Source: a virus
Length of the DNA stretch: 21,006 nt
Reading direction: 5' to 3' (one strand)
IMG/VR virus record: IMGVR_UViG_3300017960_000067
Location: 1-21,006 of that record
Shown: positions 3,176 through 21,006 of the stretch, in pieces
How the letters are laid out: each line of letters begins with the position of its first letter
How positions within the stretch are numbered: the stretch's first letter is position 1
The notes under the pieces: generated by a model
Told to the model about the DNA's origin: nothing
Database searches by the model: none
Seen by the model: only the letters and a program-made list of their open reading frames with translations
Position numbers and translations under genes: made by a program

Positions 3176-3585
3176 CAGTAATCCTCCAGGGTGTCCTGAG
3201 ACCAGACGCGGTCCGGGGCGTCATAGTCCGCCTCGTCATTGGTGTCCGGCGTCGGTGTGACGCCTAGGGATACCCTGCCCATGCTCACGTCTCGCAGGAA
3301 GCGGATGGCGTTGTCGTAGCGACTCTGAACGGTATCGGTCGGCTGATCCTGGTAGAGGAAGTACCTGGCGATGTCGCAGCAGATGCGCACGAGGATTTCG
3401 GGGGGACTCTCCAGGGGAAGGGTATGCCGCGTGGCGAGGTAGCCGTCCATCTCCGACGTGGCGTCATCGAGGGCCGCATCGAGCACGGCCTCGTCGATGG
3501 AGGTGCCCTTCTCATGATCCGTGATCTGTGCGATTTCGGGCTGCCCGAACCGTCCGGTCATGTCGTCCTGCGTGGCGTATGCCAT
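3175..3585 (-). CDS. Mu gp36-like head-tail connector (DUF1320)
   Basis: 136 aa, starting MAYATQDDMTGRFGQPEIAQ. The opening 'YAT..D...RFG..EI.Q.TD', the acidic helix with VLDAALDDATSEMDGYLATR, and IARYFLYQDQPTDTVQSRYD are characteristic of the DUF1320/gp36 family. In transposable phages it is taken to be a head completion or connector protein bound to the portal. GAGGT lies about nine bases before the ATG. It lies in the same strand and order as the terminator gene that follows, with overlapping stop and start. Confidence 0.85.
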   Translation of the reverse strand: MAYATQDDMTGRFGQPEIAQITDHEKGTSIDEAVLDAALDDATSEMDGYLATRHTLPLESPPEILVRICCDIARYFLYQDQPTDTVQSRYDNAIRFLRDVSMGRVSLGVTPTPDTNDEADYDAPDRVWSQDTLEDY

Positions 3586-7455: not shown

Positions 7456-8129
7456 CAGGCCGCCTCCTTCTCGCCCACGTTGTAGGCCCAGCCCGGATCG
7501 ATCCCGTTCGGCACCACATGGATCTCGCCGGTCTTCGGATTGATCCACTCATAGGTCCCATCGTCCGGCGCCGTGTCGGGGCCGTCCTTCCCGAGCTTCT
7601 CCATGTCACGCTCCGAGAGCGACTGCACGAAGCACCGGCAGCCCCACCCGTTCGGCGGATAGTGTGTATGCCACCAGGGGTCGTCGAAGCGGAGGATCAG
7701 CCCGTCCCACTTCAGGTGCTGCTCGCGGGGCTCCTTGGATGCGGGACTGTGCCGGTATCGCCAGAAGGGGCGGCGGTCGCTGATGGCGACGAGCTGGCGA
7801 TACCGCCCCGCCTGGTAGGACGTACGGATGTTGGCGTCGTAGATGACCCGCGTCCGCCAATCCCGGCCGCCCTTGTAGGCCCAGCCATACCGGGCCACGA
7901 TGTCGTCGAAGTCCTTTCGGAAGGTCTCGATTGTGACGCCCTCGGTCACCGCCCGGTCAACAGCCTTCCGCATGTCCTCGAGGAGATCGTCGCGGGCAGC
8001 CCCGGCAATGGAGAAGGCCCGCTGATGCTCCTGCTGCCAGAGGTCGTCCCAGGCTTCCGTCGGCATGTTGACCTTCTTGCGGAAGAAGGCGATCTGCTCC
8101 TCGAAAGGCAGGGCGCCAAAGACCGGCAT
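7455..8129 (-). CDS. Head morphogenesis protein (Mu gpF / gp30-like)
   Basis: 224 aa, starting MPVFGALPFEEQIAFFRKKV; the start overlaps the portal stop. Family marks are visible: RVIYDANIRTSYQAGRYRQL, WRYRHSPASKEPREQHLKWD, and the signature HYPPNGWGCRCFV, the conserved 'H-PPNGWGC-C' block of phage Mu F-like proteins, plus a WAYNVG ending. The protein is about half the size of Mu gp30, so the C-terminal region of the Mu protein is absent. It is a minor capsid protein needed for head assembly. Order portal, gpF, gpG is as in Mu. Confidence 0.9.
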   Translation of the reverse strand: MPVFGALPFEEQIAFFRKKVNMPTEAWDDLWQQEHQRAFSIAGAARDDLLEDMRKAVDRAVTEGVTIETFRKDFDDIVARYGWAYKGGRDWRTRVIYDANIRTSYQAGRYRQLVAISDRRPFWRYRHSPASKEPREQHLKWDGLILRFDDPWWHTHYPPNGWGCRCFVQSLSERDMEKLGKDGPDTAPDDGTYEWINPKTGEIHVVPNGIDPGWAYNVGEKEAA

Positions 8130-9643
8130 CAGCTCCCCTCCTCTAGGACATCGGCCCGGCCGGCCAATTCGGCGGCCAGGCGGCCGAGCCGCATGTGGCG
8201 GGTGAACTCATCGAGATCGATCTCGGGGTGGATCGCCTGCAGCCGCTCGTTGAAGTCGACGAGGTCCTTGGCCTCACTGGCCAGGATCCGGGCGGTGGCG
8301 ATCCACTCGTCCACGATGGGCCCGAGCCGCTGCTGGAGCTGCTCCACGTGGCCGGGCGGGAGGATGTCCCGGCTGCCGCCGGCAGCCTCCGCGAACTCCG
8401 CGCTTCCGGACGATCCGGCCGAGCCGGACGCTCCGGCCGCCGCCAGGTCGAAGGGGCTCCACACCAGGTCTTCGCCGGGATCGGGTTCGGGGATTCCGTA
8501 CTTCTCGTAGACGTACCGCCTGCTGATCGGAACCATCTTGGCGAGGACCTGGTCCCGGTAGGCCGTGAACCGGAGGTCCTCCGGCTCCTCGATCCGCCGG
8601 CTGACGAGGGGCGTCTTCGCGTTGGGAAAGTTCCACTCCGTGAGCCATCGCCCGATGGTGAGGTTGAAGGAGTGGCAGACCAGGTCCGCGTCGGCCTCCA
8701 CCAAATCCTGGCGGACCGTCATGTGAACCTGGGCCTGGCTGCTTCCCAACCCGGCAGCCGTGGCATCTGCCGTCATCGTTTGGCCGATCATCACCTTCGA
8801 GATGGCCGCGTCCATCTTGTTGAGGAGCGACTGGTAATCCGCCGTCCCTGAGCGGGCGGCCTCGAGAAGCTCAATGAGCATTCCCTCGGGAGTGATGATC
8901 CCGCTGTCCGCCTGGATCGCCTGCAGAGCCGCCAGCAGCTTGGTCTTCTCCTGCTCCCCCGCTCCCAGCGGGAACTTCCCCCAGGCCGTGGGCTGGCCGA
9001 ACTTCTCGAGAAAGATCAGCCAGAACTTCATTCCGTTGCGCTTGAACTGGACCGGCCAGTAGACCCAGTGGGCCAGGCCGAGACCATACAGCTCGTCGTC
9101 GTTGTCCGAGCCGCACTGGAACACCCAGAACTTCCGATCCGGAAGCACCTCGCCCGTCGGCTTATCGGAGGTCAGCAGCCTCATGGAGCCGTCGCCCATG
9201 AAGGCGAAGCGGCGCCGATTGCGCACCTTGATGGAATCGAGGACGATGTAGCTCCCGTCCCTCGCCCACAACGCCTCCGCAACGGCGAACCCGAAGAAGC
9301 GGCCGAAGAGCATCTTGTCCGTGGCGTTATCGAACTTGATGTGGTCGAGCTGCTCCCGCATGAAGTCGGCGGCCTTGGCGTCCTCCGACGATTCCCCTCC
9401 GGCCTCCACCTCCCAGTCCGTGGAGATCACCGCCAGGCGCCGCTGCTGGAAGGTGGCCGCAACCTGGTCGTCCCGGAGCAGCTCCTCGTAGGTTCTGTAG
9501 TTGCCCCCGCCCCGGCCTATCAGGATCGAATCCTGCGGCTGCTGGATCTGAAGCGGATCGACGTATCCGCGGGTGATATCCCGGCCGTCCCGCGTGGTGG
9601 CAACCTCGTCGAAAGTGGGTTCCTTAGCGTTTCCTCTCGGCAT
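8129..9643 (-). CDS. Portal protein, DUF935 (Mu gp29-like)
   Basis: 504 aa from ATG at 9643, which overlaps the terminase stop as TGATG. The frame extends farther upstream but the extra ~118 residues are Arg/Gly-rich and antisense to the terminase. The DUF935 pattern is clear: GYVDPLQIQQPQDSILIGRG, then DQVAATFQQRRLAVISTDWE, NATDKMLFGRFFGFAVAEAL, and MIGQTMTADATAAGLGSSQA followed by VRQDLVEADAD. This protein forms the dodecameric ring at one capsid vertex through which DNA enters. It follows the large terminase and precedes gpF, as in Mu. Confidence 0.93.
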   Translation of the reverse strand: MPRGNAKEPTFDEVATTRDGRDITRGYVDPLQIQQPQDSILIGRGGGNYRTYEELLRDDQVAATFQQRRLAVISTDWEVEAGGESSEDAKAADFMREQLDHIKFDNATDKMLFGRFFGFAVAEALWARDGSYIVLDSIKVRNRRRFAFMGDGSMRLLTSDKPTGEVLPDRKFWVFQCGSDNDDELYGLGLAHWVYWPVQFKRNGMKFWLIFLEKFGQPTAWGKFPLGAGEQEKTKLLAALQAIQADSGIITPEGMLIELLEAARSGTADYQSLLNKMDAAISKVMIGQTMTADATAAGLGSSQAQVHMTVRQDLVEADADLVCHSFNLTIGRWLTEWNFPNAKTPLVSRRIEEPEDLRFTAYRDQVLAKMVPISRRYVYEKYGIPEPDPGEDLVWSPFDLAAAGASGSAGSSGSAEFAEAAGGSRDILPPGHVEQLQQRLGPIVDEWIATARILASEAKDLVDFNERLQAIHPEIDLDEFTRHMRLGRLAAELAGRADVLEEGS

Positions 9644-11184
9644 CAGAATCCCTCCAGGTCGGTGCCGCCGCCTACGCTCCCGAATCCAACGGCCGAGCGG
9701 ATCTCGTGGCCGCGCTCTTCGAACAGTTCTAGCGAGGAGCGCCGCACCCCCGTGGTCTCGAACTCGATGGGAGCGACCTCCCTCCGGCTCGCGAACAGCC
9801 CCAGGAAGATCGCGATGGCAGCGTCCGCGTGGCGCTGCCCGCCCTTCGAATCCTTGGCCCGGACATCCGGGATCTTCGGGGTGCCCTTGATCACCTGAAT
9901 GGCGCGCAGGTCGGTGAGCACGTCCGTATCGCGGGGGATCTCCACGGTGGCGTCCTCGAAGGCCGCCTTCCCCGGCGGCATCTGCTCCGAGTACCACTTT
10001 TCCGAAAGCATGACCTGCTCGATCCGGCTGAAGCCGTAGCGCTGGGCGGCATATTCGCCCAGGAACTGGCCGTTGCCCCGGCTATCCATGCCCGCGGAGA
10101 GGAAGCACGGCAGCCTGTCGGCGATGTAGTAGAGGACCTGCTCCTGCTGCTTGAAGGGGGCGTCCCGCAGCTCGAGCAGAAAGGGGAACCGGATCGTCAG
10201 ATTCCCTTGCTCCTGGTAGGGTGCGATGACCGTGAGGTCTCCGGACCGCCCGAAGTCCATCCCATAACCGCTCTTCAAAGAGGGGTTGAGGCTCTGTAGA
10301 AGCGGCAACACTTCCGCCTCGAGCCAGTCGTTGACCTCGGCCCAGCGGAGCTGATCGGGCCATGTCTCGAACTTCTCCACCGGGGGCTTCCAGCGGAGAA
10401 CGGGAGCGTCGACCATTCGGGCCGTGATTAGCGCGCGAGAAAGATACCCGCCCTCGCTGTTCGACGGGACGCAGAACAGCTCCTCGTCGGCATCATCTCC
10501 GTACTGATCGATGATCTTCTGGCGCCATTCGATCTCGGCCCCGGCGGACCACTCCTTCCCCTTGACCAGGCAGATTCGCTTGTACAGGCCGTCATCCAGC
10601 GCCTCATCGAAATCGATGCGGTGCAGCGCGTACTCCTTCCGACCGGCCCGGATGTCGAGCACGAGTTCGTTGAAAGGGTTCTCGGCGCCGTTGTGCGTGC
10701 TGATCACGTGCACCTGGCCGCCCCAGATCAGCATGGCCATGGCGGCCTTGAGCAGTTCCCCGAGCTGATCGTGGAAAGCCGCCTCGTCGATGACGATCCG
10801 GCCCTGCTTTCCGCGGAGGTTCGAGGGGCGGCTGGAGAGAGCCGTCACCCGGAAGCCCGACGCGAACCGGATCCGGAAGGCGAGGATCCCGCCGTCCTTC
10901 TCCTCGTCGTCGATGACGACCTCCTCCATCGCAGCCGCCACGAGCTGGTAGCGCTTGGCCCAGTCCGCAGTGTCCCGGATGAACTCCTCGGCCATATCCT
11001 TGTTGTAGCCGATGTACCAGACGTCCATCCCGTTGTCCCGGTCGGCCGCCAGGAGAGCCGAGTCGGCCGCCTCGCACCAGCTCAATCCGATGCGGCGGGA
11101 CTTCTCGCAGACCTTCACGTCCTTGGTGTCGCCGGCCCAGCGCTGTTGATACGGCAGAAAGGCGTAGGGCGCGGCATGCGTCAT
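9643..11184 (-). CDS. Terminase large subunit (Mu gp28-like)
   Basis: 513 aa from ATG at 11184, overlapping the methyltransferase stop as ATGA. The ATPase has an adapted P-loop (CEKSRRIGLSW, residues ~26-36), a Walker B GRIVIDEAAF (~128-137) and the coupling motif ISTHNG (~161-166). The nuclease half has the acidic residues expected of an RNase-H-like fold: GMDFGRSGDL (~308-317), GMDSRGNGQ (~365) and RHADAAIA (~468). As in Mu, it would cut packaged DNA by headful and power translocation through the portal. The combination of motifs makes the call secure. Confidence 0.95.
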   Translation of the reverse strand: MTHAAPYAFLPYQQRWAGDTKDVKVCEKSRRIGLSWCEAADSALLAADRDNGMDVWYIGYNKDMAEEFIRDTADWAKRYQLVAAAMEEVVIDDEEKDGGILAFRIRFASGFRVTALSSRPSNLRGKQGRIVIDEAAFHDQLGELLKAAMAMLIWGGQVHVISTHNGAENPFNELVLDIRAGRKEYALHRIDFDEALDDGLYKRICLVKGKEWSAGAEIEWRQKIIDQYGDDADEELFCVPSNSEGGYLSRALITARMVDAPVLRWKPPVEKFETWPDQLRWAEVNDWLEAEVLPLLQSLNPSLKSGYGMDFGRSGDLTVIAPYQEQGNLTIRFPFLLELRDAPFKQQEQVLYYIADRLPCFLSAGMDSRGNGQFLGEYAAQRYGFSRIEQVMLSEKWYSEQMPPGKAAFEDATVEIPRDTDVLTDLRAIQVIKGTPKIPDVRAKDSKGGQRHADAAIAIFLGLFASRREVAPIEFETTGVRRSSLELFEERGHEIRSAVGFGSVGGGTDLEGF

Positions 11185-15570: not shown

Positions 15571-15807
15571 TTAGCTCTCCTTATCATCCGAAGCTACATC
15601 GTTAGCATCGGCCCTCTGCAGCGCCTCCGGCGCCCTGTCGCTTATCGTTGCGCTGGCAAGCTCCAGCCCGAGGAGCGTCGACATGACTCGCATCAATCCC
15701 CAGAGGAGTGAGACTCTCATCCCGGCTCCCCTCGGAGATTGCAGCCGAATGCCGACGACCATCCCCCACAGAAAGATCGAGATCGCGAACAGCACATCCG
15801 TCACCAT
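15571..15807 (-). CDS. Small membrane protein
   Basis: 78 aa from ATG at 15807, overlapping the Mor-like stop as TGATG, with GGAGG seven bases upstream. Residues ~3-22 (TDVLFAISIFLWGMVVGI) form one transmembrane helix; a second hydrophobic stretch (SLLWGLMRVMSTLLGLEL) follows, and the C-terminus is acidic and polar. No family recognised. Small membrane proteins are common between activator and lysis genes in transposable phages; a holin or holin-control role is possible but unproven. Confidence 0.6.
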   Translation of the reverse strand: MVTDVLFAISIFLWGMVVGIRLQSPRGAGMRVSLLWGLMRVMSTLLGLELASATISDRAPEALQRADANDVASDDKES

Positions 15808-16244
15808 CACCGCCCCTCCGCAAGTATTCTGAGCACGCTCCTTCGTGTCATCCCGAAGCGGCGGGCGATGGAGCCCGCGCTCCGGTGGCTATCGCTCATC
15901 CGCTTGATTTCCAGGTTCCGGAGCAGCCTCGTCACATCCGATCCCAGGGGCACCTCCAAATGAAGGCCGGCCCACCTCTCCGAAATCGCCTCTGCGGCCT
16001 CTTTCCCCACGAGCACCACTAGCGGATGGCGTTCGTCGAGGTGTTCTCGGCTGGGCACATACATCCTCGTTCCGCCGTAGCGATCGGCCAACCGAATGGC
16101 GGCCTCCTCCCCGGAGATCTCCACCACCTGGCCCAGCAGTTCCGGCAGGGCATCGACCGCCCGGTGACGGTGACGTTCCGACCGCTCCTGTTCGAATGCC
16201 TCGAAAATGCTAGGCTGTTCCACCCTTCCGCCTTCGTTGGTCAT
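15807..16244 (-). CDS. Mor/C-family transcription activator of late genes
   Basis: 145 aa from ATG at 16244 inside the end of gemA; a TTG six codons earlier is possible. The conserved Mor core is present: GEEAAIRLADRYGGTRMYVP, matching the family's AxxLAxxYGGxxxYxP strand-helix, and a C-terminal helix-turn-helix, SAGSIARRFGMTRRSVLRIL. Mor and C of Mu bind dyad sites as dimers and recruit RNA polymerase to weak middle and late promoters. Only one such gene is seen here, so it may do the work of both. The two GGGTGAC-N4-GTCACCC dyads in front of lysis and head genes are candidate targets. Confidence 0.88.
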   Translation of the reverse strand: MTNEGGRVEQPSIFEAFEQERSERHRHRAVDALPELLGQVVEISGEEAAIRLADRYGGTRMYVPSREHLDERHPLVVLVGKEAAEAISERWAGLHLEVPLGSDVTRLLRNLEIKRMSDSHRSAGSIARRFGMTRRSVLRILAEGR

Positions 16245-16629
16245 ACATGAGAGCCGACACAATCTTCCCCAGTTCCGGCGGCCGGCACCATTTCACGCGC
16301 TGCACCTTGCACATCCGCTGCGCGATCGCGTCGGCGTAAGACCATGGCCTCCCTGCCTCCGTGAGCAGCGCCTCGATCTTCCGGAATAGCCGTCCTCGGT
16401 CTGGATCGTCCAGATTCGGCCGGCCGGGGTACCCCGTCTTTCCCTTCTTGCGCTTCGCGCCCTTCGCTTCGAATTCCCTGAGCAGGCGGCAGTACTGGGC
16501 AACGGTCAGCTTCTTGCAGCTCCGCACCGAGAACAGGTCATCGAGGAGGTCGTGATAGGTGTCGTCGTCGAGGCCGATGGAACGGCGAATGGCATGGATC
16601 TTCCGGATCTGCCGAGCATCGAGAGCCAT
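16210..16629 (-). CDS. gemA: GemA-like regulatory protein (Mu gp16, DUF1018)
   Basis: 139 aa from ATG at 16629, overlapping the previous stop as TGATG behind a GGGGGGAG ribosome site. The DUF1018 pattern is clear: RQIRKIHAIRRSIGLDDDTY followed by HDLLDDLFSVRSCKKLTVAQ, then a basic loop (AKRKKGKTGYPGRP) and a C-terminal helix region with WSYADAIAQRMCKVQRVKWC. In Mu, GemA alters expression of host genes and DNA supercoiling-related functions. The gene lies directly upstream of the Mor-like activator, as in Mu, and overlaps it. Confidence 0.9.
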   Translation of the reverse strand: MALDARQIRKIHAIRRSIGLDDDTYHDLLDDLFSVRSCKKLTVAQYCRLLREFEAKGAKRKKGKTGYPGRPNLDDPDRGRLFRKIEALLTEAGRPWSYADAIAQRMCKVQRVKWCRPPELGKIVSALMYDQRRRKGGTA

Positions 16630-16820
16630 CACTCCCCCCCATACCCGAAGATCTCCCGGCCCATATTCCGGATCCACTCGGCAAGATCCTGCCGCAGGAT
16701 GATCCCGACGGGGGTCGCCAGAAACAGGGCCACGAAGCTCACGGCGGCGCCGGCCGCACTGGCCAAAAGGATGGCGATCATCACCAGGTGCACGCCGACG
16801 TAGCTCCAGTAATCAGCCAT
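16629..16820 (-). CDS. Small two-helix membrane protein
   Basis: 63 aa, starting MADYWSYVGVHLVMIAILLA. A long hydrophobic segment (residues ~8-45) can form two transmembrane helices separated by a Gly/Ala turn (SAAGAAVSFVALFLATPVGI), then a short polar tail. It overlaps the upstream gene by eight bases and the downstream gemA by one. No family recognised. The tight coupling on both sides argues that it is translated. Confidence 0.6.
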   Translation of the reverse strand: MADYWSYVGVHLVMIAILLASAAGAAVSFVALFLATPVGIILRQDLAEWIRNMGREIFGYGGE

Positions 16821-17598
16821 AGATCCGCCTCTTCACCCGGCGCCAGACCGAGAAGAGAAGTTCTGTCAGCTCCTCCATTTCCTCACCGATGGCCTGGCGC
16901 ATGTCCTCGTCGGAGGGCGCAAACGAAGGGAGCGCGGCCTGCGGAAGAAGAGTGATCCCTTCTACCGGCTCCTCGGGTGGCTGTCCCTCCGCCTTCGGCT
17001 CCGGTTGCGAAGGGGTGGGAGTTGCGGGTGGTTCCGGCGTCTTCTTCTTGACCTTCGGCTTGGCGGCCCTGCCGTGAGCACCGCCCTTGTCGGAATTGTT
17101 CCCGGCGCACTTGCGGCACCTCGCGCTTTTGAACTCCACCCAGCCCTCACCGCATTCGGGGCACGGCCTCACCCGATTGCCGCAAGGACTTTGCACCGTT
17201 CCGTTCCTGGTGTACCGGTACCCCTCGGGCAGTTCCGGTCGCTCCTCGGCGGGGATCCCCGCATAACAGCCCTCCGCCGGGTTCGTTGGAAACCGCGTGC
17301 CCTTCTTCATCTTCGCCTCCTTCTTCGGCTTCGGCTTCGGCGCCGATTGCATCCTGGGCGCAGTCCTGAAATCGACCTCCAGGGCCGCATAATCCTCGTT
17401 CCATCCGGGGCACTCCTCGCCGGCGCACAGGTGGTGCCGCTCCCGGCCGCTCTCTTCAAACTGCCTGCGTCGCGACTCACAGGCCAACGTCGAGATCGGG
17501 AAGTCCGCGATCATTGGGCACATCAGGCCCTTCGGGTTCTCCCGTACCGCCTCATCGGCTTGTAGACGTGCCGCCAGGCTGAGCCGTTCCGTGTCCAT
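16813..17598 (-). CDS. Zinc-ribbon protein with disordered Pro/Lys-rich linker
   Basis: 261 aa; ATG at 17598 overlaps the preceding stop as TGATG, with a G-rich ribosome site seven bases upstream. Two cysteine-rich units are visible: an N-terminal one around residues 26-65 with Cys, Cys, His-His, CAGEEC, and a central ribbon with CPEC and CRKC separated by 11 residues (CX2C-X11-CX2C). Between and after them are Lys/Pro-rich linkers (KPKPKKEAKMKKG, EPPATPTPSQPEPKAEG). The C-terminus is an acidic helix followed by a basic one (WRRVKRRIYG). The layout suggests nucleic-acid or RNA-polymerase binding, in an early-gene position. I know of no named family and claim no function. Confidence 0.62.
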   Translation of the reverse strand: MDTERLSLAARLQADEAVRENPKGLMCPMIADFPISTLACESRRRQFEESGRERHHLCAGEECPGWNEDYAALEVDFRTAPRMQSAPKPKPKKEAKMKKGTRFPTNPAEGCYAGIPAEERPELPEGYRYTRNGTVQSPCGNRVRPCPECGEGWVEFKSARCRKCAGNNSDKGGAHGRAAKPKVKKKTPEPPATPTPSQPEPKAEGQPPEEPVEGITLLPQAALPSFAPSDEDMRQAIGEEMEELTELLFSVWRRVKRRIYG

Positions 17599-17960
17599 CA
17601 CAGTGCCCCCTCTAAGAATGGCAGGATCTGCTTCACGTAGTCTTTCGGCTTCATCCGTTTGAGGTAGGCCACCTCGACGAGAGCCGACACGGCGGCCTTC
17701 TCCTTGAGCCGGATGGCGTCCGCATATTCCTTGGCGGTCTTCGCGAGCCTAAAACCCCTGCCGTCGGAGAGGATCGCCACCCCTTGGCTAACCAGATAGG
17801 CGCGAGCCTCGCGGACGCGCCGCTCCTTCGTCGATTGCTTCATGAGGGGGTTCTCGACCAAGCCCGCCAATTCCGCCCGCTTGAGGGGCTCAGGCGAGTC
17901 CTGCAGCCTCCGGTAGATCCTGCGTGCGAGCTGTACGGTCTGGTCGGTAACTCTCAGCAT
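17598..17960 (-). CDS. Small winged-helix-like protein downstream of the hammerhead ribozyme
   Basis: 120 aa, starting MLRVTDQTVQLARRIYRRLQ. The helical N-terminus, the basic helix STKERRVREARAYLVSQG and the short hairpin VAILSDGRGFRLA look like a winged-helix DNA-binding module, followed by a long helix (TAKEYADAIRLKEKAAVSAL). The ATG is five bases after stem II of the ribozyme; its Shine-Dalgarno (GAGG at 17971-17968) is shared with ribozyme stem II. After self-cleavage its mRNA would begin at 17993 with a stem-loop and a 5'-hydroxyl. An early regulatory role is inferred only. Confidence 0.65.
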   Translation of the reverse strand: MLRVTDQTVQLARRIYRRLQDSPEPLKRAELAGLVENPLMKQSTKERRVREARAYLVSQGVAILSDGRGFRLAKTAKEYADAIRLKEKAAVSALVEVAYLKRMKPKDYVKQILPFLEGAL

Positions 17961-17965
17961 GTTTC

Positions 17966-18022
17966 GGCCTCATCAGGTGGCGCCTCACGCCACGACGCGG
18001 GGTGTTGCCCCGCGTTTCGGCC
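17966..18022 (-). ncRNA. Type II hammerhead self-cleaving ribozyme
   Basis: Every core element is present in order on the transcribed strand. Stem II 3' strand GGCC (18022-18019) is followed by GAA (18018-18016) and A15.1 at 18015. Stem III is a closed hairpin, 18015-18008 with 18002-17995, eight pairs around loop CAACA. The cleavage nucleotide C17 is 17994. Stem I is a closed hairpin, GTGGCG 17993-17988 with CGCCAC 17982-17977, loop TGAGG. Then comes the conserved CTGATGA (17976-17970) and the stem II 5' strand GGCC (17969-17966). Cleavage is expected between 17994 and 17993 (GUC|G). Stems I and III are closed and stem II open, which defines type II. The motif fills the 67-base gap between the gam stop and the next ATG. 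Confidence 0.93.
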
Positions 18023-18027
18023 TCGGG

Positions 18028-18591
18028 TTATGCGATCTCCTCGAGGTCCAGCTCGAAGGGCTGGATCACGAAGTCCTCGCCCTGTGTCACGTTGATGCCG
18101 CCTACGTGCTGCACGAGGCTCGGGTCCTTCAGGATGGCGTCCTTGTCCACCTCCTCCTTGACCCGGATGAACTGGGCCATGCCCAACGCCTTCAGCGCCT
18201 CGATCACCTTCGGGATGTTCTTGAGAGAGACCTTCGGCGGCCGCATACGCCACAGGATCTTCCCGCTCGATAGGATGGCGGTCTTCGTCTTGCCGCTGTG
18301 GGTCAGGCCGTCCCGGTTCGCTTCGGCCCAGGTGTGAACACCCTTGGTGAGGGCTTGGATCTTGTCGTTGTGGGGCTGGGCCATCTCCTCGTACTTCTGC
18401 TTGATGGCCGCCAGCTCGTCGTTCATGTTCGCCTGGATCCGGGCCCGCTCCCTCTGATGGGCGCCGATCTCCGCGATGGCCTCCACCGCCTGCTCCGGCG
18501 TTTGAGGCACCGGCACAGATACGGCGTTGCACTTCACTCGTTTCTTCGCCATGGCTCGATCCTTATCAGGTGGGTCTTTTCGTCTGGTCAT
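18028..18591 (-). CDS. gam: Host-nuclease inhibitor Gam (Mu Gam-like)
   Basis: The C-terminal two thirds closely resemble Mu Gam: HSGKTKTAILSSGKILWRMR, PPKVSLKNIPKVIEALKALG, AQFIRVKEEVDKDAILKDPS, ending FELDLEEIA, with an N-terminal coiled coil (AHQRERARIQANMNDELAAI). Gam binds double-stranded DNA ends as a Ku-like dimer and blocks host exonucleases. ATG at 18591 has a strong AAAGGAG six bases upstream and gives 187 aa. ATG at 18552 (AAGGA, eight bases) gives 174 aa, the length of Mu Gam, so both are possible. Five bases after the TAA the hammerhead ribozyme begins, so cleavage would leave gam mRNA ending in the stem III hairpin. Confidence 0.93.
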   Translation of the reverse strand: MTRRKDPPDKDRAMAKKRVKCNAVSVPVPQTPEQAVEAIAEIGAHQRERARIQANMNDELAAIKQKYEEMAQPHNDKIQALTKGVHTWAEANRDGLTHSGKTKTAILSSGKILWRMRPPKVSLKNIPKVIEALKALGMAQFIRVKEEVDKDAILKDPSLVQHVGGINVTQGEDFVIQPFELDLEEIA

Positions 18592-18649
18592 CGGGTCTCC
18601 TTTCGCCTTCTGGTCCGTGGTTGACCTGCCCAACCCAAATGGATCTCGG

Positions 18650-18874
18650 CTACGCCGAGGCTCCTCCCACCACGGCTTCCATGCCATCGCGCATGCAACG
18701 CGACTGATATTCCTGAATCGCCTTCTGGGTCTCCCAGCAGTGCCGCTTCACCGCCCACAGGCTTTCACGGGTGTCGTATTTGCGGTGCCGTGCGATGGCC
18801 GCGTTCAGTTCCAGAACCGCATCCTCCGCAAGGATCCGGCTGTCTTCGAAAATCGCCTTCATTCCGTCCGTCAT
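18650..18874 (-). CDS. Small helical protein upstream of gam
   Basis: 74 aa from ATG at 18874, with GGAGG six bases upstream; longer starts would overlap the previous gene. Nearly all helical (RILAEDAVLELNAAIARHRK, then LWAVKRHCWETQKAIQEYQS) with two Cys. No family recognised. A six-base-pair hairpin (18645-18650 with 18654-18659) overlaps its stop codon and may shape the mRNA before gam. Small uncharacterised genes at this point are usual in the semi-essential early region of Mu-like phages. Confidence 0.58.
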   Translation of the reverse strand: MTDGMKAIFEDSRILAEDAVLELNAAIARHRKYDTRESLWAVKRHCWETQKAIQEYQSRCMRDGMEAVVGGASA

Positions 18875-19943: not shown

Positions 19944-20636
19944 TCAGTACACGACCCGGTACCGCAGCCACACCTTTTCGTCGGTGGCCACGTTCAGCCG
20001 GATGTATTTCGCGGCGCCGGGAATGTCCCCGCTCTGGTAGGGATCGAGGAAGTCATAGGCGCTCGGCACTCCCGACGACGGCGCCGTCGGTAGCGCCACG
20101 GCCTCCGTGGTGCCGTAGTTCAGGTAGACCGGCACCGTGGGAGCATTCGCCTCGGACCCGTTGATCATGCTGATGTACTGGGCGCTTCCGCCCTCGGGCA
20201 CGAGGATGAGTCCCCCGGAGGCATATCCGCCGCTGTCGTAGGCCGTATAGCCGCTCGTATCCACCCCGGTCGAGAACGTGTCGGCGGTGAGCCGCGTCAC
20301 CTCGACGTACTCACCGTTCAGCTCCGTCATGCCAACGATGCCCGAGAGGTAGACGACGTGGCCCGTGTCGAGGTTATGGCCCGTGATCGTGATCACGCCG
20401 GGGTCTTCCTGGCTGATCCCCTCGATGGCCTGGTTCGCCACCACGATCTCCCTCGAGGGGATGCGGTCGCCCACATACCCGGCCGGGAAGACCTTGGCCT
20501 CGGCCTTCATCGCGGAGAGGTTCACCATGAGGCCGACGCAGCAGGCAATGATGCCGAGGGCGCAGCAGATCATCGCCGCGGTCCGCAGCCGCTCGAAAAA
20601 CGCATGGTCCCGCTTCTTGAATGGGTAGCTAGTCAC
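19944..20636 (-). CDS. Membrane-anchored protein with FCCH-like (ubiquitin-activating E1) domain
   Basis: 230 aa from GTG 20636, overlapping the MuB stop by eight bases, with AGGAGG five bases upstream. One transmembrane helix (AAMICCALGIIACCVGLMV, ~20-38) follows a basic N-terminus. Residues ~75-135 (ITITGHNLDTGHVVYLSG, ELNGEYVEVTRLTADTFS, TSGYTAYDSGG) match the small beta fold annotated as 'E1 FCCH domain' in many phage structural proteins. The C-terminus is beta-rich (AAKYIRLNVATDEKVWLRYR). It should face the periplasm or cell surface. Why a virion-like domain is anchored in the membrane and expressed early is not known. Confidence 0.7.
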   Translation of the reverse strand: MTSYPFKKRDHAFFERLRTAAMICCALGIIACCVGLMVNLSAMKAEAKVFPAGYVGDRIPSREIVVANQAIEGISQEDPGVITITGHNLDTGHVVYLSGIVGMTELNGEYVEVTRLTADTFSTGVDTSGYTAYDSGGYASGGLILVPEGGSAQYISMINGSEANAPTVPVYLNYGTTEAVALPTAPSSGVPSAYDFLDPYQSGDIPGAAKYIRLNVATDEKVWLRYRVVY

Positions 20637-21006
20637 CGTTTCCTCCTAGTTCTTTCCAGGCATGCTGGATGTCCTGTTCCGTGATGTCCTCCTCCCGTCC
20701 GGCCGCGTAGAGCCCGGCCAGGCGGAGAACCTTGGTCATGATCCGAAGGGCGCCGGGCTTCGAGGCAATCGCACGAAGCGGCGCAAGTCGCTGCGCGTCG
20801 GTGATGCCCCACGCCGCCGCGAGATTCGTGATGTCGTCCTTGTAGGGGCGCTTGAGGGGTACGCGCTTGCCGATCCTGCTGAAGAGCCGGTCCAGGTAGG
20901 GGGCCATCGAACCGCCCGTCATCCGCCCGTACACCGTCTCGTTCCCGACGAGGGCCAGGCCCACATCGGTGGCGTCGTGAATCGAGCGGAGCTGGTCCAG
21001 CCCGGA
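20629..21006 (-). CDS. MuB-like DNA transposition ATPase, C-terminal part (starts outside window)
   Basis: The frame is open to the last base; the visible 125 residues begin SGLDQLRSIHDATDVGLALV. 'LDQLRxIHDATDVGLALVGN' with the Asn at the end of the strand is the sensor-1 region of MuB/TniB AAA+ ATPases; then VYGRMTGGSMAPYLDRLFSR and IGKRVPLKRPYKDDI follow, and the C-terminal helical domain (AWGITDAQRLAPLRAIASKP) completes the family layout. Walker A and B lie beyond the window. In Mu, MuB binds target DNA and delivers it to the MuA transposase. Its presence makes this a transposable phage. Confidence 0.9.
   Translation of the reverse strand, partial: SGLDQLRSIHDATDVGLALVGNETVYGRMTGGSMAPYLDRLFSRIGKRVPLKRPYKDDITNLAAAWGITDAQRLAPLRAIASKPGALRIMTKVLRLAGLYAAGREEDITEQDIQHAWKELGGNGD

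Follow-up and report, generated by a model that had tools for sequence, protein, structure and literature searches.

A type II hammerhead ribozyme of a GGCC phage subtype in the gap downstream of a Mu-like gam

Why do self-cleaving ribozymes persist between the genes of phages, and most of all of Mu-like phages? PMC10085705, citing Roth 2014 and Weinberg 2015, states that no genes are more strongly associated with bacterial hammerhead and twister ribozymes than those of Mu-like phages, and leaves the reason unknown; the literature that we searched for a function of hammerheads beside gam likewise offered the association only, with no mechanism. The question arises anew at a Mu-like phage fragment, a 21-kb virus record (the window, i.e., the whole stretch of DNA analyzed), in which all recognised genes lie on the minus strand and a ribozyme fills the gap downstream of gam:

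20629-20964, minus strand: C-terminus of MuB
18028-18687, minus strand: gam (Mu Gam, DNA end protection; PF07352, E 8.9e-41; PHROG 491)
18022-17966, minus strand: type II hammerhead ribozyme, whole, occupying the gap from gam to the 120-aa gene
17598-17960, minus strand: downstream gene, 120 aa, with its ATG at 17960, 5 nt past stem II of the ribozyme
16210-16677, minus strand: GemA
15807-16262, minus strand: Mor
8129-9997, minus strand: Mu portal

The stop codon of gam (TAA, 18030-18028) lies 5 nt upstream of ribozyme stem II. The long gam open reading frame carries 45 additional N-terminal residues (window 18687-18552, minus strand) which are missing from other Gam proteins, and alignment with these proteins places the true start probably at an internal ATG at 18552 (MAKKRVKC). 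Over 65 aa, the 120-aa downstream protein shares 45% identity with a protein from L044, a second Mu-like phage, and it weakly matches PHROG 2113; L044 was the sole relative found, with none among viral contigs or annotated phages. The gene is likely real, since L044 encodes this 45% identical protein.

A first-pass annotation, made from the letters alone, had described a complete type II hammerhead after gam on the transcribed strand. Every element was confirmed base by base, and all of its coordinates proved correct; the same holds for its prediction of a cut between 17994 and 17993. In order of transcription the parts are:

18022-18019, minus strand: stem II, 5' strand (GGCC), with A18023 immediately before it
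18018-18016, minus strand: core GAA (G12 A13 A14), read directly
18015-18008 with 18002-17995, minus strand: stem III hairpin of 8 bp, loop CAACA, with A15.1-U16.1 at its base
17996-17994, minus strand: GUC triplet, read directly
between 17994 and 17993, minus strand: predicted cleavage site, after C17 of GUC
17993-17988 with 17982-17977, minus strand: stem I hairpin of 6 bp plus U17987.G17983, loop UGAGG (subtype consensus UNNNG)
17976-17970, minus strand: catalytic core CUGAUGA, read directly
17969-17966, minus strand: stem II, 3' strand (GGCC), read directly

The position of the cut after C17 follows from established hammerhead chemistry. The general hammerhead core (CUGANGA and GAA, the A15.1-U16.1 pair and UH at the cleavage site) is present at 17976-17970, 18018-18015 and 17995-17994, and three helices of 4, 8 and 6-7 bp surround it. 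Stems I and III are closed by loops and stem II is open, in the order GGCC-GAA-stem III-UC-stem I-CUGAUGA-GGCC, which makes the fold type II. The minimum free energy structure of the RNA is exactly the ribozyme fold. In folding energy the RNA stands out only moderately from shuffled sequences (z = -1.85; 10/200 shuffles equally good), and the evidence thus rests on the motif instead of the energy: a strict structural descriptor matched the window once, while 300 order-1 Markov-shuffled windows, both strands included, gave 11 loose matches, none as strong. The window ribozyme is probably active as a self-cutting RNA, as judged from its sequence. An 11-nt direct repeat, GAGGCCGAAAC, is found at both ribozyme ends (window 18024-18014 and 17971-17961, minus strand), probably because stem II is palindromic with GA on either side.

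At its gathering threshold Rfam found nothing in the window. When an E-value threshold was used, the type II model RF02276 matched 18022-17962, the best of all Rfam families for the ribozyme stretch, but with 25.3 bits (E 0.0025 for 201 bases) it stayed below the gathering score of 37. We built a covariance model (R2) from 53 related phage ribozymes, with the window left out; an earlier model (R1) had included the window, and its score was excluded as evidence. R2 scored the window ribozyme at 65.1 bits (E 9.9e-16), with the next-best match in the window at 12 bits. Among roughly 39 subtype copies in 16 loci, just four passed the RF02276 cut-off. The low Rfam score is explained by membership of the window ribozyme in a distinct GGCC phage subtype, most ribozymes of which escape annotation when the current Rfam model is applied at its cut-off.

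The signature of this subtype, which the window carries, consists of AGGCC-GAAA, a 6-bp stem I with a UNNNG loop, and CUGANGAGGCC. We searched viral contigs with a sequence-only pattern in which GGCCGAAA and CTGANGAGGCC were fixed at a spacing of 28-58 nt and pairing in stems I and III was not required, and at least 120 stretches matched. Among those listed, 115/135 distinct matches had the hammerhead fold (both hairpins and the UH site), as against 7/6750 shuffled inserts. Loop I is of five nucleotides, with U first and mostly G last. Moreover, an upstream open reading frame of at least 50 codons ended within -90 to +20 of the ribozyme in 111/115 listed copies, mostly a few nucleotides away, as compared with 50% at random positions; as a rule this frame terminates at the ribozyme's first bases, where its stop codon often shares the first G of GGCC. 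In the alignment of relatives, double-sided changes were found in 12/17 pairs and 98.7% of cells were paired (70.5% when shuffled). The covariation score was 0.65 versus 0.13 for shuffled alignments, stems I and III covarying strongly. Stem II is uninformative in that alignment since its letters were fixed by the search; a descriptor without fixed letters recovered, next to pattern matches, a few copies with the variants AGCC/GGCT, GGTC/GACC, AGTC/GACT and GCGC/GCGC, showing that stem II too changes in a paired fashion. By these sequence comparisons the GGCC phage subtype is distinct, abundant and widespread in phages. An exact search of viral contigs for CTGATGAGGCCGAAACATG found none.

Two further features separate the subtype from what had been expected or described. 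The first-pass annotation had suggested that tandem G.A pairs extend stem II; the letters are there in the window, but in relatives only the A preceding GGCC is kept (115/115 among the matches listed and 209/210 in the larger set) and the G is not; the extension was accordingly rejected. A pseudoknot between loop I and the tail was sought as well: in the window the longest Watson-Crick match is 2 nt, and in the subtype 11% of copies reach 4 nt, equal to the chance level set by swapped tails. With the pseudoknot absent, the speed of cleavage is uncertain. According to PMC3088659 (Perreault et al. 2011), type II hammerheads of RF02276 share the core CUGANGA/GAAA/UH, closed stems I and III and an open stem II, and likewise lie in phages and prophages on the sense strand between genes; their stem II, on the other hand, is of about 2 bp, whereas the subtype has a 4-bp palindromic GGCC with an invariant A ahead of it and the UNNNG loop I, and lacks the pseudoknot between loop I and the tail. 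As side observations, a bulge at the third base of stem I (TGACCCGTAATGCGGGCA) recurs among copies rejected by the strict descriptor (L272, L188, L193, L213 and L222), and type II hammerheads form arrays with copies a few hundred bases apart in L175 (nine copies in about 4.2 kb), L188, L196, L256 and L266.

The link between hammerheads and Mu-like phage genes that the first-pass annotation had raised turned out to be real, both in PMC10085705 and in our own survey. When the descriptor was run over 160 gam loci, type II hammerheads were found in 12 of them, all on the gam strand and downstream (6 nt to 3.3 kb), with none upstream or antisense; a weak descriptor match in L138 was regarded as chance. 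The Rfam or subtype model added L013 and L026, plus weaker matches in L156 and L161. About 90% of gam loci show none, so that a hammerhead is not needed for gam function; in L001, which carries a relative's gam, neither gap nor ribozyme was found. Most of the gam-locus hammerheads are of the classical pseudoknot type, and the window's type occurs in L044 only. The classical ones of Mu-like phages (e.g., in MP42, L006, and in L104, where one begins 6 nt after gam) share the gam strand and the downstream position and often begin at a stop codon, but they pair loop I GUGGY with tail GCCAC, while the window has the GGCC subtype instead. Placement downstream of gam thus recurs, and the ribozyme subtype is exchangeable. 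Cultured Pseudomonas phages carry two of the classical type II hammerheads 1.3 kb past gam, unannotated and scoring 66 bits with RF02276: L006 (MP42) at about 3286-3355 and L003 (FBPa28) at about 3448-3518.

How close the ribozyme of the window sits to translation signals is evident from one further feature:

17971-17968, minus strand: GAGG, likely Shine-Dalgarno sequence of the 120-aa gene, within the core and stem II and 7 nt from the start codon

This GAGG is the only Shine-Dalgarno-like sequence suitably spaced from the start codon, which itself lies 5 nt beyond stem II; the ribosome-binding site of the next gene is thus likely located inside the ribozyme. The first-pass annotation had missed this likely site, as it had missed the separate subtype below the Rfam cut-off. 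At the free core position N7 a G creates GAGGAGG, and in such copies the catalytic core holds a strong Shine-Dalgarno sequence. Among 210 relatives, an ATG 0-5 nt past stem II was found in 9/16 copies with N7=G versus 11/194 others (p 7e-7, calculated without kinship correction, on a sample that a scan for copies with N7=G had augmented, with 4/9 of the close-ATG N7=G copies coming from the sample that generated the idea). Copies with N7=G (CUGAGGAGGCC) and a start codon no more than 5 nt away were seen in L167, L209, L253, L267, L289, L296, L297, L299 and L301. From pairing probabilities, accessibility of the window's GAGG rises from 0.44 in the uncut RNA to 0.67 in the 3' product, while that of the start codon is unchanged by the cut (0.49 to 0.46); in other close-ATG copies the effect of the cut on Shine-Dalgarno accessibility was mixed.

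Other members of the subtype carry a second signal that involves the core. In 68/210 relatives a tail N'UCAG, complementary to core CUGAN, lies within a few nucleotides of stem II. The pairing between N7 and N' was C with G in 38/38 cases and U with A in 28/29 (G.U in one), the lone N7=G case being mismatched; in fresh scans made after the tail had been noticed, the U case matched in 14/15. An anti-core tail together with a close start codon was found in 0/20 (p 3e-4), and the tail of the window, GAAACAUGCUG, is not of the N'UCAG kind. The tail hairpin was predicted by folding with a probability of 0.80 before the cut and of 0.99 in the 3' product. Because the tail is transcribed later than the ribozyme, it could put an end to the period in which cleavage is possible, or lock the product. 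The alternative hairpin, CUGAN-GAGGCC-N'UCAG, would destroy the catalytic core; L255, L250, L187, L211 and L266 are examples.

Structure, subtype membership, covariation in relatives and placement are directly evident from the sequences, and self-cleavage of the early mRNA is strongly suggested. In our judgment the element is probably a type II hammerhead acting in cis: it would cut the polycistronic early mRNA past gam, ahead of the next cistron, and so separate the two. We infer the course of events as follows: i) the ribozyme would cut the early mRNA soon after polymerase has passed; ii) the upstream product would end with the 8-bp stem III hairpin, its terminus bearing the 2',3'-cyclic phosphate known from this chemistry; iii) the downstream product would carry a 5'-OH and open with the stem I hairpin, after which come GAGG and the start codon; iv) separated in this way and furnished with structured ends, each cistron could have its own lifetime and translation rate. 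Since stem II occupies half of GAGG, ribosomes and the folding ribozyme should compete for it, and once the upstream fragment is lost after the cut the GAGG site should be free. Hammerheads from prophages of other bacteria, type II among them, do cut in vitro, and some cut in E. coli (PMC3088659).

The overlap with GAGG also suggests that the element may mainly be a translation switch, in which the ribosome-binding site is concealed as long as the RNA is folded and uncut, and in which folding and cutting depend on ribosomes that come from gam or bind at GAGG. The placement of GAGG within core and stem II, 7 nt from the ATG, the company of N7=G with a close ATG and the gam stop codon 5 nt ahead of stem II all speak for such a switch; yet accessibility is predicted to change modestly, and not consistently from one example to the next, and only about 20/210 relatives have a start codon so close, so that we regard a mainly translational role as possible but somewhat short of probable. 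That the ribozyme is an inactive or neutral remnant, a tolerated insert hopping between phages without selected function, would fit its patchy occurrence across gam loci and the differing distances from gam at which classical and GGCC types are found. Compensatory changes in stems I and III over very divergent copies, the strict strand and stop-codon placement and the complete core in the window nevertheless make a remnant very improbable.

Still less credit is due to the idea that the ribozyme marks a circular or satellite RNA (a rolling-circle unit or retrozyme-like element) rather than a site of mRNA processing. The 11-nt repeat flanking the ribozyme and the arrays in some phages, such as the nine copies in L175, could be taken that way, but the window has one copy only, the copies in arrays have unlike stems I and III and hundreds of bases between them, and the repeat follows from a palindromic GGCC stem with GA flanks; the circular-RNA reading of the repeat was accordingly rejected as resting on a by-product of the stem. 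Cistron separation thus remains the reading that we prefer. We tentatively extend it to the subtype as a whole: a dedicated phage hammerhead might serve as a cistron separator whose catalytic strand either doubles as a ribosome-binding site (as in the window) or pairs with a covarying anti-core (an off-switch, or a lock that holds the product open after the cut), coupling cleavage to translation or to the timing of transcription.

Phage hammerheads, type II hammerheads and the Mu-like neighbourhood are already known. Compared with the Mu-like-associated hammerhead and twister ribozymes of Roth 2014 and Weinberg 2015, as summarised in PMC10085705, the window copy has the same kind of gene neighbourhood and differs in the likely ribosome-binding site within its catalytic strand. 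PMC3088659 further describes HHphage, a hammerhead variant of halophile viruses, which in haloviruses HF1 and HF2 precedes an early gene's start codon by 13 nt; in the window, from a Mu-like phage, the distance is 5 nt. In the literature searched, which is short on subscription papers, we found no description of the GGCC subtype without pseudoknot, of the overlap with a ribosome-binding site or of the covarying anti-core tail; some GGCC-type copies may already stand in the supplementary alignments of PMC3088659. The N7=G core with a close start codon and the tail that covaries with the core look new. Stop-codon placement, ribosome-binding-site overlap and anti-core tails suggest that cutting is tied to translation or transcription, and the subtype thereby suggests a concrete, testable answer to why phages, Mu-like ones above all, keep self-cleaving ribozymes between genes. 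Further structured RNAs were seen in Mu-like loci: C4 antisense RNA adjoining isrK in L007 (6763-6956), C4 in L008 (7423-7507) and L017 (6700-6786), and RT-15 in L016 (4288-4470).
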